Assembly (NCBI GenBank): GCA_017554445.1
Contig: JAFZIJ010000196.1
Coordinates: forward strand, 1 to 64,000
DNA length: 64,000 nt
Source: Victivallales bacterium
GTDB taxonomy: Bacteria > Verrucomicrobiota > Lentisphaeria > Oligosphaerales > Oligosphaeraceae
Direction of reading: 5' to 3'
A program made the translations under genes and the position numbers. Shown piece by piece: positions 31,174 through 49,094 of this stretch (within the stretch, counting starts at the first letter, position 1; the number at the start of each line of letters is the position of its first letter). The notes below the pieces were generated by a model. That model did not search any database. It saw only the letters and a list, made by a program, of their open reading frames with translations, and was not told the DNA's origin.

Positions 31174-31324
31174 AGGACCATCAACGGCGGGACGCCGTCG
31201 TTACCATCGGCGGGACGTACGCAGGACCATCAACGGCGGGACGCCGTCGTTACCATCGGCGGGACGTACGCAGGACCATCAACGGCGGGACGCCGTCGTT
31301 ACCATCGGCAGGACGCCGTCGTTA
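31174..31324. repeat. 49-bp tandem repeat, three copies plus a partial, reaching the stop codon of the next gene
   Basis: Units start at 31174, 31223 and 31272 and are nearly identical. Each unit contains the 14-nt word GGACGCCGTCGTTA (minus strand TAACGACGGCGTCC) at 31190, 31239 and 31288, and a final word lies at 31311-31324, ending exactly with the TAA stop (31322-31324) of the minus-strand oxidoreductase. There are no unique spacers, so it is not CRISPR. Confidence 0.9.
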
Positions 31325-32344
31325 CTCAACGATTAGCTTGAGGCCGTCGATGCGTACCGGACGGCCGAATTCCGCGCTTTTGCGGATGGCGATGCAGGTC
31401 AGATGGGCGTTGACGGCGGAGCGGATGTTGTTCGGTGATTCTTTGTCCTCCTGGATGCATTCCACGAAATGCGATATCATCGCTGGGAAGGGATGGTCAT
31501 AGACGTCGCCCGATTTCTTGACACCCGTGTCCAACGTGAAAAAGTCCTTCTGGCCTTCGAAACGCTTCAGGTAGAAACGGTCGTTGACGATGGTGCCTTT
31601 TTCGCCTAAGATGCTGGTGTTCGCCATGTAAGGCGTTGTGCCGACAAGCGAGCAGGAGAAGACGCCGATGGCGCCGTTGGAGAATTGGACTTGCGCTGTT
31701 TCAACGGGCGGATATTCATAGTAGTTTCCAACCATCGCCGCCTGCGCGGAGACGCGGGTGATGTCCGCTCCGATGATGTGTCGGACCATATCGACGGAAT
31801 GGCAGCCCGCCAGAATGAAAGCGCCGCCCGTCTGTTCGGCATGCTTCATCCAGCCTTTGCGTTCACGGCCGAACCAGTAGTCGGTATTCGCCATGAAAAC
31901 TTTGCCGAGTTCGCCTTCGGCGACGAGCCGCCGTTGTAGTTGGACGAGCGGGTTGAACCGCAGGATGAACGCCACAAGTGTATGGACATGAGATGTTTTC
32001 GCTGTTTCGACAAGACGTGGGATGTCCTCTTCGCAAATGGCGATGGGCTTCTCCAGAAAGACATGCTTGCCTGCCTTCATGGCGAGAATGGCCTCCTCCG
32101 CATGCTGGCAGTTCGGCGTGCAGATGGAAACGATGTCGATACGGTCGTCGTTGAGGATGTCGTTGAAATCCGTCGTGGCGCGGCAGTCCAGACCGAATTC
32201 CGCCTGTTTGGCTTGGACGCTTTCAAGACGTCGGCTGCCGAGCGTAACGACTTCGCAGGCAGGATGTTTCATATAGGCGTTGATATGGCCGCTGGCCACC
32301 CAGCCGCAACCCCAGACCGCACAACCGAATTTACCGTTTTTCAT
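31322..32344 (-). CDS. Gfo/Idh/MocA family oxidoreductase
   Basis: A 340-residue NAD(P)-dependent sugar or inositol-type dehydrogenase. The Rossmann motif is complete (VWGCGWVASGHINAY near residues 9-24). The dinucleotide motif FLEKPIAI follows at about 94-101, and the substrate-domain motif GGAFILAGCHSVDMVRHIIG includes the catalytic His. The length is usual. It lies next to, and on the same strand as, the WYL regulator gene (27 bp downstream of it), which faces a DUF4838 protein. These genes may act together on a sugar. The stop codon is the start of a 14-nt repeat word. Confidence 0.92.
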   Translation of the reverse strand: MKNGKFGCAVWGCGWVASGHINAYMKHPACEVVTLGSRRLESVQAKQAEFGLDCRATTDFNDILNDDRIDIVSICTPNCQHAEEAILAMKAGKHVFLEKPIAICEEDIPRLVETAKTSHVHTLVAFILRFNPLVQLQRRLVAEGELGKVFMANTDYWFGRERKGWMKHAEQTGGAFILAGCHSVDMVRHIIGADITRVSAQAAMVGNYYEYPPVETAQVQFSNGAIGVFSCSLVGTTPYMANTSILGEKGTIVNDRFYLKRFEGQKDFFTLDTGVKKSGDVYDHPFPAMISHFVECIQEDKESPNNIRSAVNAHLTCIAIRKSAEFGRPVRIDGLKLIVE

Positions 32345-33433: not shown

Positions 33434-33528
33434 AAGACAAGAGTTGACATCTGCTTTTCCCTATATAAATTTGCAGGAAGGCGATGTTACGGGAGGAAGA
33501 TTTTCAATCCACTTTCAAGAGGTTCATC

Positions 33529-36522
33529 ATGAGACATTGGACTGGTTTGCTATTGCTTTGCCTGACAGCCACTTCCGTTCAGGCTGATCTTGTATTGGCC
33601 CGTCGTGGCACGGCCGCGGACACGGTGATTGTCCACGCGGTGGACGCCCCTGAATCTATCAAACTGGCTTGCAATGAGATGCAGATGTACATCGAACGCC
33701 AGACCGGCGTGAAACTGCCGATACAGGACGATGGCGGCGCGTTGCCGAAGAAGGCGATTCTTGTCGGCAAGCCGCGTTATCTGGCGGAATTGCCCGGTTG
33801 CCAGTTCCCTGAAATGGCACTGCCGGATGATTCATTCTGCTTGAAGACTGTCGGCGAACGACTGGTCATCTACGGCGGAAAGCGCGGTGGCATGTACGGC
33901 GTGTATGAAATTCTGGAACGCTTCGGCGGTTGCCGTTGGTATTCGTCTTGGTGCGAAGTCGTTCCGACGCTGGACGAATTCAAAGTGGCGTCTGATTTGG
34001 ACGAAAAACAGATTCCCGCTTTTCTCATGCGCGAACCGTTCTGGTATGACATGTTCAATACGGAACAGGCCTATCGCAACAAATGCAACGGCAACCAGAT
34101 GCGGCTTTCAGAAAAAGAAGGCGGCAAGGTGCGTTTCGGAAGCGGTCTGTTCGTCCATACGATGGATCAATTCATTCCTGTCAAGGAATTCTATGATACT
34201 CATCCGGAATACTTTGCGGAAATCGGCGGCACCCGCCGCAACGGCTATGTGCAGCGCTGCCTGACGAATCCGGATGTGTTGAAAATCACGACGGAACGGC
34301 TGTTGGATCGCATCCGCAAGGATCCGACGGCGACGATGTACAGCGTCAGCCAGAACGACGTCTATAACTTCTGCACATGCAAGGAATGCAACGCGATGGC
34401 AGAGAAATACGGCGGCCAGTCCGGCCTGCTGATCTGGTTTGTGAACCAAGTGGCGGAAGCCGTCGAGAAGGAATTTCCGAACGCGTTGGTCGAGACGTTG
34501 GCGTATCAATACACGCGTACGCCGCCTGTGAACATCAAGCCGCGCCACAACGTCGTCCCGCGTCTTTGCACGATTGAATGCGACTTCTCCAAGCCGCTGG
34601 ACGTTTCGAAACATCCACAAAACATTAAGTTCGTGAAAGATATCGAAGGCTGGAGCTCTATGACAGACAAGCTGTTCATCTGGGACTACACGACGGATTT
34701 CGCCAACTATCTCTGTCCGTTCCCGAACTTCGGCTGCCTGCAGGGCAACGTGAAATTCTTCCGCGACAACCATGTCATCGGTTTGATGGAGCAGGGCGCT
34801 TATCAGGGCTATCATGCTGAGTTCGCGGAACTTAGAGGATGGATTCTTGCCAAGCTGTTATGGAATCCGGATCAAGATGTCGCGCCGTTGTACGACGACT
34901 TTTTCAACGGCTATTACGGCAAAGGCGCGCCGTTCATCCGTAAGTATTTTGATGAATTGCAGTCGCTTGTGACGGGCGATGACAAGATTTTGAACATCTG
35001 GATCGCGCCGAACGTCGGCTGGATTACGGATGACTTCCTTGATCGTTCTCTGAAGTTGTGGCAAGATGCGGAAGCCGCTGTAAAGGACGATCCTGTCAGG
35101 CTTTACAACGTCCGTAAGAGCTCCATTCCAGTTTTCTTCGCGCTGTATCAGCGGATGCCGCATGACAAGCCTGAATACAAATGGTCGGACACGGAAGTCA
35201 GCCCATTGCTAACGCCGAAGGCTGCCTATATTTGCAAGGAATTGGTGGCGCGTTATGACGAAGCGGATCCGAAAGGCGTCAAGCGGAACATTTATATTCG
35301 CGAAGGCGGCAATGCGCAGTATCAGGAATGGATAAAATTTGCGAAAACGGCTCCTGTCGTCACGATAAACGGTCGCGGATGCAAGGCGGGAATCGCGCCG
35401 AAGTTAAACGCGCAGGTCGGTTTCTTCCGTAATGCGGAAGGCGTTGACTTGCTGGATGCAACAGCAGGCGGCTTCTGCTTCTCTAACAATTTGGGTGGTG
35501 CATTTTCAGACGTCGCCGCCATGGAATATGAGATCAAGACAGAAGGCGATGACCAACTAATCGTGAGCACTGGGAAAGATGGATTGGAATATACTCAGTC
35601 CATCGGTTTTTGGGGAATTGACAATCTGATTTGCGTCACGGGAATCAAAAATACGTCAAAGAAAGTCCAGAAGATCCGTCCATTCGCGTCGTTGGCGTTG
35701 GCAATCAATGCAAGTCCGTATTTCACTTGGTGGCTGGATAGTGGTCATGGGGATAGCGGTCATGAGAATGTATGTGCCTTGCAATCAGGGACGAAGCTCG
35801 ACTACATGGCGATTGGCGGTGAGGAACTGAAAGGCAAGAAGATATTGACAATTGTCGGGGCAGACGGACAGGGTGTGGTAATTGGGTTGCCGGATGCAAC
35901 GTGTGAACGCATCGCCATTCAATATCATGCCAAGGGGGTGCGTCTGTACTACATCGAACCTGTGGCGGATTTGCCGTTGGAGGGGAATGTGTTACGCCGT
36001 TTCGTTTTGAGACATTTCAAGGGAACCACTGCGACTGACGTCAAGCCTGCAGATGTGAACGCTCCCGCCCGCATCGTCTATGAGGACTGCGAGATTCCGT
36101 TGAACAAGAAGCCGACGTGGGGCGAGACGGTCATTGATGCGGAAGCCATTGACAAATCGGCGCATAAGCTGTCGAACTCGCACTACGAATGGTGCATCCA
36201 GCTGCGGCCGGACATGAATCTTCTGGACGCGTCCAAAACGTATACGGTTCGCGCACGCGTGAAGGTCGTTCCGAAGGAAGGCGCAACAGGCGAGGCCTTC
36301 TGGGCGGGCGTCTACAACACGTCGACGACGGAGTACTACGGCAATCTCAGCGTAAATCTGAAGAATGTCCAGCCGGGCTACCAGTGGTATGTGCTGAGTG
36401 AAAAATGGCCGCCGCATTCGACTGATTACATCTGGATGGGACCGCCGCGTTTCCACAACAATACGTCGCCTGTGGATGCTGTTTATTTGGATCGGATTGA
36501 GATTATTGAGAATAAGAAGTAA
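33529..36522 (+). CDS. exported DUF4838 protein (carbohydrate-active type)
   Basis: A 997-residue exported protein with a signal peptide (about 1-19, ending SVQAD). An alpha-glucuronidase-like N-terminal domain comes first (about 25-140, HAVDAPESIKLACNEMQMYI). The DUF4838 domain follows (about 160-430), with TMYSVSQNDVYNFCTCKECN, EKEFPNALVETLAYQYTR, FIWDYTTDFANY and GLMEQGAYQG (each partly). The rest is beta-rich and ends in a domain like a carbohydrate-binding module (WAGVYNTSTTEYYG). DUF4838 proteins are typical of Lentisphaerae and Bacteroidetes polysaccharide loci, and their exact reaction is not known. I chose the ATG at 33529, start of the signal peptide, with AGAGG upstream. The TAA stop is the start of a 14-nt repeat word. 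Confidence 0.85.
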   Translation: MRHWTGLLLLCLTATSVQADLVLARRGTAADTVIVHAVDAPESIKLACNEMQMYIERQTGVKLPIQDDGGALPKKAILVGKPRYLAELPGCQFPEMALPDDSFCLKTVGERLVIYGGKRGGMYGVYEILERFGGCRWYSSWCEVVPTLDEFKVASDLDEKQIPAFLMREPFWYDMFNTEQAYRNKCNGNQMRLSEKEGGKVRFGSGLFVHTMDQFIPVKEFYDTHPEYFAEIGGTRRNGYVQRCLTNPDVLKITTERLLDRIRKDPTATMYSVSQNDVYNFCTCKECNAMAEKYGGQSGLLIWFVNQVAEAVEKEFPNALVETLAYQYTRTPPVNIKPRHNVVPRLCTIECDFSKPLDVSKHPQNIKFVKDIEGWSSMTDKLFIWDYTTDFANYLCPFPNFGCLQGNVKFFRDNHVIGLMEQGAYQGYHAEFAELRGWILAKLLWNPDQDVAPLYDDFFNGYYGKGAPFIRKYFDELQSLVTGDDKILNIWIAPNVGWITDDFLDRSLKLWQDAEAAVKDDPVRLYNVRKSSIPVFFALYQRMPHDKPEYKWSDTEVSPLLTPKAAYICKELVARYDEADPKGVKRNIYIREGGNAQYQEWIKFAKTAPVVTINGRGCKAGIAPKLNAQVGFFRNAEGVDLLDATAGGFCFSNNLGGAFSDVAAMEYEIKTEGDDQLIVSTGKDGLEYTQSIGFWGIDNLICVTGIKNTSKKVQKIRPFASLALAINASPYFTWWLDSGHGDSGHENVCALQSGTKLDYMAIGGEELKGKKILTIVGADGQGVVIGLPDATCERIAIQYHAKGVRLYYIEPVADLPLEGNVLRRFVLRHFKGTTATDVKPADVNAPARIVYEDCEIPLNKKPTWGETVIDAEAIDKSAHKLSNSHYEWCIQLRPDMNLLDASKTYTVRARVKVVPKEGATGEAFWAGVYNTSTTEYYGNLSVNLKNVQPGYQWYVLSEKWPPHSTDYIWMGPPRFHNNTSPVDAVYLDRIEIIENKK

Positions 36523-36533
36523 CGACGGCGTCC
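36520..36533 (+). repeat. 14-nt word TAACGACGGCGTCC beginning at a stop codon
   Basis: The first three bases are the stop of the DUF4838 gene. The following CCGCCGTTG completes a hairpin. The same 14 bases start at the stop codons of the gene ending at 49073 and of the minus-strand gene ending at 31322. Confidence 0.9.
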
Positions 36534-36609
36534 CCGCCGTTGCACGCAGACGGGACGCCAGAGCCTATCTCTGTGCAACCCGTCAGCACGATAACAAGGA
36601 AGATGTATC

Positions 36610-48264: not shown

Positions 48265-48410
48265 GCTGTTGATTCTCCTTTGATTGTGATTTTATATGAT
48301 TCTCTATGATTCTTTATGTAAATGTATGACTTTCAATGACTAATCTTGCAGAGTAGCAGAAATGGTGTATGGTAGTCGATAGGATGTCAACGAATACGGA
48401 GATTATGTTT

Positions 48411-49073
48411 ATGGATACGAAGATGAATCGACAACAGGAATGGTATCTGCTGGGCACGCTGGTGGCGGTGTTTGGAGGTCGCTTCAGCGGACGGATCGGC
48501 GATTATGCGCATAGTGCGCGTTTTCAATTGAAAACTGCCGCCGAACTGGCGGACGATGAGACGGAGCGGAAGCGACGTCTCATCGGTCAGGCGGACAGTT
48601 TGCTGTCGCGAATGATGAATGAAACGGAGCTGTTGCTAATGGCCTGCGGAGGCGCCGTTTGGTCGGAGGAGGATGAGCTGTATCTTGAGATAATGGCTCA
48701 ACGGATGGAACCGTTTGAAGACGGCGCGGATGGCGTGGCGGTTTTCAGCCACGCCGTTTTGAAAGAGCGTGAACGGTTTGGACGATGGCTTTTGTCGGAA
48801 GACATGTCCATGGCGCTAAATGGTTTATTGGTTCTGACGGGACGCCTTCGGCGTCTTCTACGCCATGAGCGGAAACGGCTTGCGGAAGAGGAAGGCGAGG
48901 CGAAACACCGCGCCTTGTTTCCAGAGGCCGCCGAATCGCCGAAATGCCCCGTCTGTGGTTCACCGATGCGTCTGCGGACGGCGAAGACCGGAACGAATGC
49001 GGGTTGCCGTTTTTGGGGCTGCACGCAGTATCCGGCCTGCCGCGGCGTCCGCGAAATTATTGACGGAATGTAA
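48411..49073 (+). CDS. helical protein with C-terminal topoisomerase-type zinc ribbon
   Basis: A 220-residue protein. Residues 1-165 are helical (NRQQEWYLLGTLVAVFGGRF, then LADDETERKRRLIGQADSL). The C-terminal 40 residues are a topoisomerase-type zinc ribbon with four cysteines: CPVCGSPM, then a later GCTQYPACRG. It may be the four-helix bundle suffix family known next to the 23S rRNA intervening-sequence type (from memory, unsure). Zinc ribbons of this type bind DNA or RNA. I chose ATG 48411, which has GGAG nine bases upstream. The frame opens at 48369. The stop is the start of a 14-nt repeat word and hairpin. Confidence 0.6.
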   Translation: MDTKMNRQQEWYLLGTLVAVFGGRFSGRIGDYAHSARFQLKTAAELADDETERKRRLIGQADSLLSRMMNETELLLMACGGAVWSEEDELYLEIMAQRMEPFEDGADGVAVFSHAVLKERERFGRWLLSEDMSMALNGLLVLTGRLRRLLRHERKRLAEEEGEAKHRALFPEAAESPKCPVCGSPMRLRTAKTGTNAGCRFWGCTQYPACRGVREIIDGM

Positions 49074-49094
49074 CGACGGCGTCCGCGCCGTCGT
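49073..49094 (+). repeat. perfect hairpin with the 14-nt stop-codon word
   Basis: ACGACGGCG and CGCCGTCGT around TCCG, beginning at the last base of the TAA stop (49071-49073). TAACGACGGCGTCC spans 49071-49084. No T-run follows. Confidence 0.85.

Follow-up and report, generated by a model that had tools for sequence, protein, structure and literature searches.

Why should three unrelated genes end in the same short word, with the stop codon included? In the window, by which we mean the whole stretch of 64,000 nucleotides analysed here (Victivallales bacterium, contig JAFZIJ010000196.1), copies of TAACGACGGCGTCC start at the TAA stop codons of a DUF4838 gene, a zinc-ribbon gene and, on the minus strand, a Gfo/Idh gene. 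An earlier note, made from the letters alone, had drawn attention to these three coincidences, and all of them are real. Here we argue that the word is, with high probability, the left end of a REP of the GTAG superfamily. It would belong to a REP/RAYT system in which the tag, mostly GTAA and also GTAG, is followed by an 8-bp hairpin.

The word is the front of a tagged hairpin

An exact search of the window returned six copies of TAACGACGGCGTCC, against an expectation of 0.00 from 100 dinucleotide shuffles. Four lie on the minus strand (31190-31203, 31239-31252, 31288-31301 and 31311-31324) and two on the plus strand (36520-36533 and 49071-49084), all at the positions reported in the earlier note. 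The word is the front (left) part of a larger unit: a G precedes every copy, and nearly all copies run on as (N)GCCGTYG. The full unit, GTAACGACGGCGTCC(N)GCCGTYG, is 23-24 nt long and consists of a GTAA tag and an 8-bp hairpin with a loop of 3-4 nt. The unit GTAACGACGGCGTCCCGCCGTCG folds into four unpaired bases and an 8-bp stem, and the consensus reaches a z-score of -5.2, which bears out the hairpin that the word had been said to open. Folding is weak for the copy at the Gfo/Idh stop (-4.7 kcal/mol, z -1.9), whose right arm has decayed. Tandem arrays of the unit are frequent, and the three further copies noticed beside the Gfo/Idh gene are indeed present, at a spacing of 49 bp. The units in the window, and the genes whose 3' ends they form, are as follows.

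31182..31204, minus strand: putative REP unit 4, third of three in the 49-bp tandem array
31231..31253, minus strand: putative REP unit 3, second of three in the 49-bp tandem array
31280..31302, minus strand: putative REP unit 2 (GTAACGACGGCGTCCCGCCGTTG), first of three in the 49-bp tandem array
31303..31325, minus strand: putative REP unit 1 (GTAACGACGGCGTCCTGCCGATG), right arm decayed, supplying the Gfo/Idh stop as TAA (31324-31322)
31322..32344, minus strand: Gfo/Idh/MocA-family oxidoreductase gene (GFO_IDH_MocA), 3' end from putative REP unit 1
33484..36522, plus strand: DUF4838 gene, 3' end from a putative REP unit
36519..36542, plus strand: putative REP unit GTAACGACGGCGTCCCCGCCGTTG, supplying the TAA stop of the DUF4838 gene
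48369..49073, plus strand: Zn_ribbon_Top1-domain gene, 3' end from a putative REP unit
49070..49093, plus strand: putative REP unit GTAACGACGGCGTCCGCGCCGTCG, supplying the TAA stop of the zinc-ribbon gene

The window's own assembly (G000; 4.92 Mb, 90.5% complete) contains 98 exact copies of TAACGACGGCGTCC genome-wide and none of its reversed form, which served as control. Four genomes of the same genus were compared (G001 to G004), among them the sister species G002 and G003. The word occurs 34 and 75 times in two of them (75 in G003), is absent from G001 and G004, and is almost absent outside the genus. A direct (head-to-tail) partner accompanies 43 of 96 copies, and an inverted pair is formed by only 9 of 96. 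The tag is mostly GTAA, with GTAG and GTGG variants in the same lineage. The GTGG-tagged sub-family (GTGGCGGCGGCGTCCCGCCGTCG), whose tag lacks a stop, numbers 48 copies in G000, interspersed with the GTAA copies.

Short, palindromic and multicopy, the element could be taken for a MITE mobilised by an ordinary DDE transposase. Its ends, however, are asymmetric, with the tag on one side only, the arrays harbour a Y1 transposase (see below), and target-site duplications are not in excess: a 5-nt direct repeat flanks 1 of 30 isolated copies, where shuffled flanks give a mean of 1.35. We therefore regard a MITE as extremely improbable. Suggestive repeats such as CGGAAG around g13 were also considered as duplications and set aside, as they do not exceed the level in shuffled flanks. 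MIRU was considered as the closest known element and not adopted.

Many array starts fall on stop codons

The stop test took arrays of copies as its units and set the tag-side start of each one against the stops of called genes; gene calls near copies rest on a home-made dicodon score. Under the strict filter, 17 of the 45 independent array starts in G000 (38%) and 12 of 42 in G003 (29%) coincide exactly with a real gene's stop codon. Counting starts at a sense-gene stop or up to 15 nt after it, the numbers become 28 of 45 and 22 of 42, and in both genomes the position is mostly extragenic, adjoining gene 3' ends. With the looser filter, 20 of 50 array starts in G000 are at a stop, compared with 3 of 163 other GTAA words in the window (Fisher p 9e-12). 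The genome-wide excess at stops on which the claim had been staked beforehand is thus present (17/45 against 3/163 other GTAA words).

Reading frame and tag point the same way. Among the genes that meet the element at their end, 20 stop in its TAA and 3 pass through in another frame (p 2e-7). GTAG-tagged copies in G003 give TAG stops in 2 of 22 cases under the strict filter and in 6 of 28 under the looser one, a count that takes in some loci chosen for their gene ends. No GTGG-tagged copy is at a stop among the 20 loci read (L327-L346).

The tag reads G-TAA or G-TAG, so that a copy landing in frame at or just before a gene end becomes its stop. Once the REP supplies the stop, the original gene end is lost or left downstream. 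In the mechanism that we propose, a RAYT mobilises single-stranded copies, and copies inside genes are mostly purged by selection, such that the survivors would pile up at and just after stops. Because the element supplies the stop, in-frame survivors would collapse onto position 0.

Many copies are found 3-15 nt past a native stop or elsewhere, and one lies within a gene. Those located 1-15 nt past a native stop all turn their tag side towards that stop (11 in G000 and 10 in G003), and an antisense gene stop near the hairpin side was found at none of 32 sites in G000 and 37 in G003. This one-sided orientation is not explained by stop supply, because an insertion into non-coding sequence should tolerate either orientation. 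It may reflect the insertion mechanism, selection on the transcript or the growth of arrays.

Sister species end the same genes without the element

We compared the gene ends of orthologues with and without a copy, for 17 genes against the four same-genus species and for 16 further genes against the sister species. In relatives without the element, the protein mostly ends at the same residue or within about one codon, at another stop and with unrelated 3' sequence. For the Gfo/Idh gene, the sister species G002 reads LIVE-TGA in place of LIVE-TAACGACGG. The DUF4838 protein ends NKK-TAACGACGG with the element, and one residue earlier, as NK-TAATGA or NK-TGA, in the sister species. The zinc-ribbon protein ends DGM-TAACGACGG with the element; in G002 it ends one residue later, as DGTA-TAA, and unrelated sequence follows. 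Larger changes occur as well, with three residues lost at one gene end (EAIMAAKP to EAIMK) and about six in the L065 gene relative to G002.

That relatives carry the same genes without the element indicates that it is mobile and brings its own stop; their different stops and unrelated flanks indicate that it overwrites the gene end. Hence the part of the earlier note that saw a mobile 3' element able to replace gene ends stands. Its suggestion of stop targeting as such remains conjectural, since many copies lie elsewhere. In G003, one unit sits in frame inside a formylglycine-generating-enzyme-like gene (L233 ~1290-1350, contig C42), where it is read as SNDGVPAI. The site is empty in G000 and G002 (L304 and L305), with a net difference of 30 nt and no target duplication.

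Could the insertion machinery itself recognise stops, or the coding-strand ends of genes, such that position 0 reflects targeting beyond selection? The spike at position 0 is sharp, most orthologues end within 0-1 codon, and the uniform orientation of copies past native stops would fit. However, the empty sites carry TGA, TAG or TAA in varied flanks, and a GTAR at the stop in some cases only; truncations of 1-6 residues occur, and the copies away from stops include the one inside a gene. Stop-codon targeting is thus a possible but unlikely reading. A variant, in which the RAYT machinery of this lineage prefers stop sites on the coding strand and the GTAA tag evolved so that insertion preserves termination, we consider distinctly unlikely. 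A fixed GTAR target, as in IS200/605-like insertion 3' of a tetranucleotide, was rejected as a requirement, as only some of the empty orthologues fit.

The comparison also bears on whether the repeat is a conserved 3'-UTR regulatory element or a transcription terminator, kept at particular genes for its function. It does place a stable hairpin at gene 3' ends, and several sites (e.g. g2, g10 and L265) are common to two or three species. Yet at many genes one sister species has it and another does not, the host genes are unrelated, the copies read show no T-run after the hairpin, and an Rfam search with the element returned no match. Together with the arrays and the RAYT association, which indicate a mobile element, this makes a functional 3' element very unlikely.

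A Y1 transposase within the arrays

Dense arrays of the element in the sister species G002 (contig C235) and G003 (contig C126) enclose a gene for a Y1/HUH protein of ~240 aa. Its sole PDB match is 4er8, TnpA_REP. It scores above the cut-off of Pfam Y1_Tnp (PF01797); with NCBIfam REP_Tyr_transpos it scores 61 bits (E 9e-17), below the curated cut-off of 80 bits. H157 and H159 (HUH) and Y217 are invariant across six relatives, and Y217 is probably the catalytic tyrosine. We treat the protein as a divergent relative of RAYTs and use that name for what it works like. G001 and G004, both free of the word, also lack a RAYT of this type.

In another genus (G019), a RAYT of 57% identity is flanked by GTAA-CGACGACG-loop-CGTCGTCG hairpins, which have the same tag and a different but still paired stem. 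The same tag with a different paired stem, beside a related RAYT, suggests that the tag-plus-hairpin architecture travels with the transposase. At L313, the stop of a long ORF coincides with the start of one of these copies.

The G000 assembly, 90.5% complete, yielded no RAYT of this type, which counts against the REP/RAYT reading. Contigs C31, C51, C135, C137, C157, C185 and C190 of this genome start or end within element arrays. Contig ends inside arrays imply that the repeats break the assembly, which may hide the transposase gene. Two PF01797 genes of G000 were rejected as partners: the 3.3 kb read at L031 contain no copy of the word, and L032 sits in an unrelated CCGTGGGT/ACCCACGG repeat array. 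At the latter locus (L032, contig C93, 1-1000), a second Y1 transposase gene lies among arrays of another palindrome, CCGTGGGT...ACCCACGG, together with ACCCCTTCGGGGT units; this looks like a further REP-like family that has a transposase of its own.

Further points that count against a REP/RAYT system are the commonest tag, GTAA rather than the canonical GTAG, and the head-to-tail arrays, which prevail over the few inverted pairs, unlike in most REP families. The orientation bias past native stops is likewise not predicted by stop supply alone.

Comparison with known systems

The earlier note knew of no element described in this way; GTAG-type REPs that supply stops were, however, reported in 2013. 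Di Nocera, De Gregorio and Rocco described GTAG-tagged REPs that adjoin gene 3' ends and whose termini "often provide" the TAG stop codon of flanking ORFs (PMC3733652). Such REPs occur in Verrucomicrobia, for example in Opitutus terrae, where many tags are GTGG (PMC3733652), a tag change like that of the GTGG sub-family in G000. GTAG-type REPs are short palindromes (20-40 bp) in high copy number, and the unit described here, with 23-24 nt and 98 copies in G000 and 75 in G003, falls within this description. They also flank a RAYT gene, as here in G002, G003 and, with a related repeat, G019. Both groups share a 4-nt tag beside a hairpin (6-9 bp in the published families), many copies, the RAYT association, a location near gene 3' ends, stop-supplying termini and copies inside genes (PMC3733652). 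Unlike the published GTAG REPs, the present family most often carries GTAA, and hence a TAA stop, alongside GTAG and GTGG sub-types within one lineage, and its tag varies at position 4 rather than at positions 2-3. In addition, tandem arrays outweigh inverted dimers, and position 0 has been counted (38% and 29% of array starts) and followed across orthologues.

The transposase shares with RAYT/TnpA_REP proteins the Y1/HUH class, the HVH motif, the conserved tyrosine, the NP motif and a gene flanked by its own REPs (Nunvar et al. 2010, PMC2817692; PMC8266576; PDB 4er8). It differs from them in its ~240 aa with an N-terminal extension and in its 61 bits against the 80 of the REP_Tyr_transpos cut-off. 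In experiments with TnpA_REP, both tag and hairpin were recognised.

The RepRanger paper (PMC12306157) relates earlier work in which E. coli REPs lying no more than 15 nt from a stop led to ribosome stalling and down-regulated translation. There, as here, the hairpin lies immediately downstream of the stop; the difference is that here the stop codon is part of the element. By analogy with E. coli REPs, a hairpin that begins one base past the stop may influence the decay of the mRNA or the release of ribosomes. Rickettsia palindromic elements (RPE), as described in PMC3733652, are in-frame palindromes inside coding sequence, as found once here in G003. In contrast to RPE, the in-gene copy is exceptional in this family, and most copies are at gene ends.

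Taken together, the element family is new, and its kind, REP/RAYT with stop-supplying GTAG REPs, is already known. A known class of mobile hairpins thus explains a striking pattern, and a GTAA-tagged form from rumen Victivallales widens that class. The one-sided orientation past native stops adds a small question beyond stop supply. Supply of stops by REPs is not in itself new; in these gut bacteria (order Victivallales) it is unusually common and can be traced, and the comparison of sister species reveals a 23-nt mobile element that repeatedly rewrites the last codons and stops of unrelated genes.
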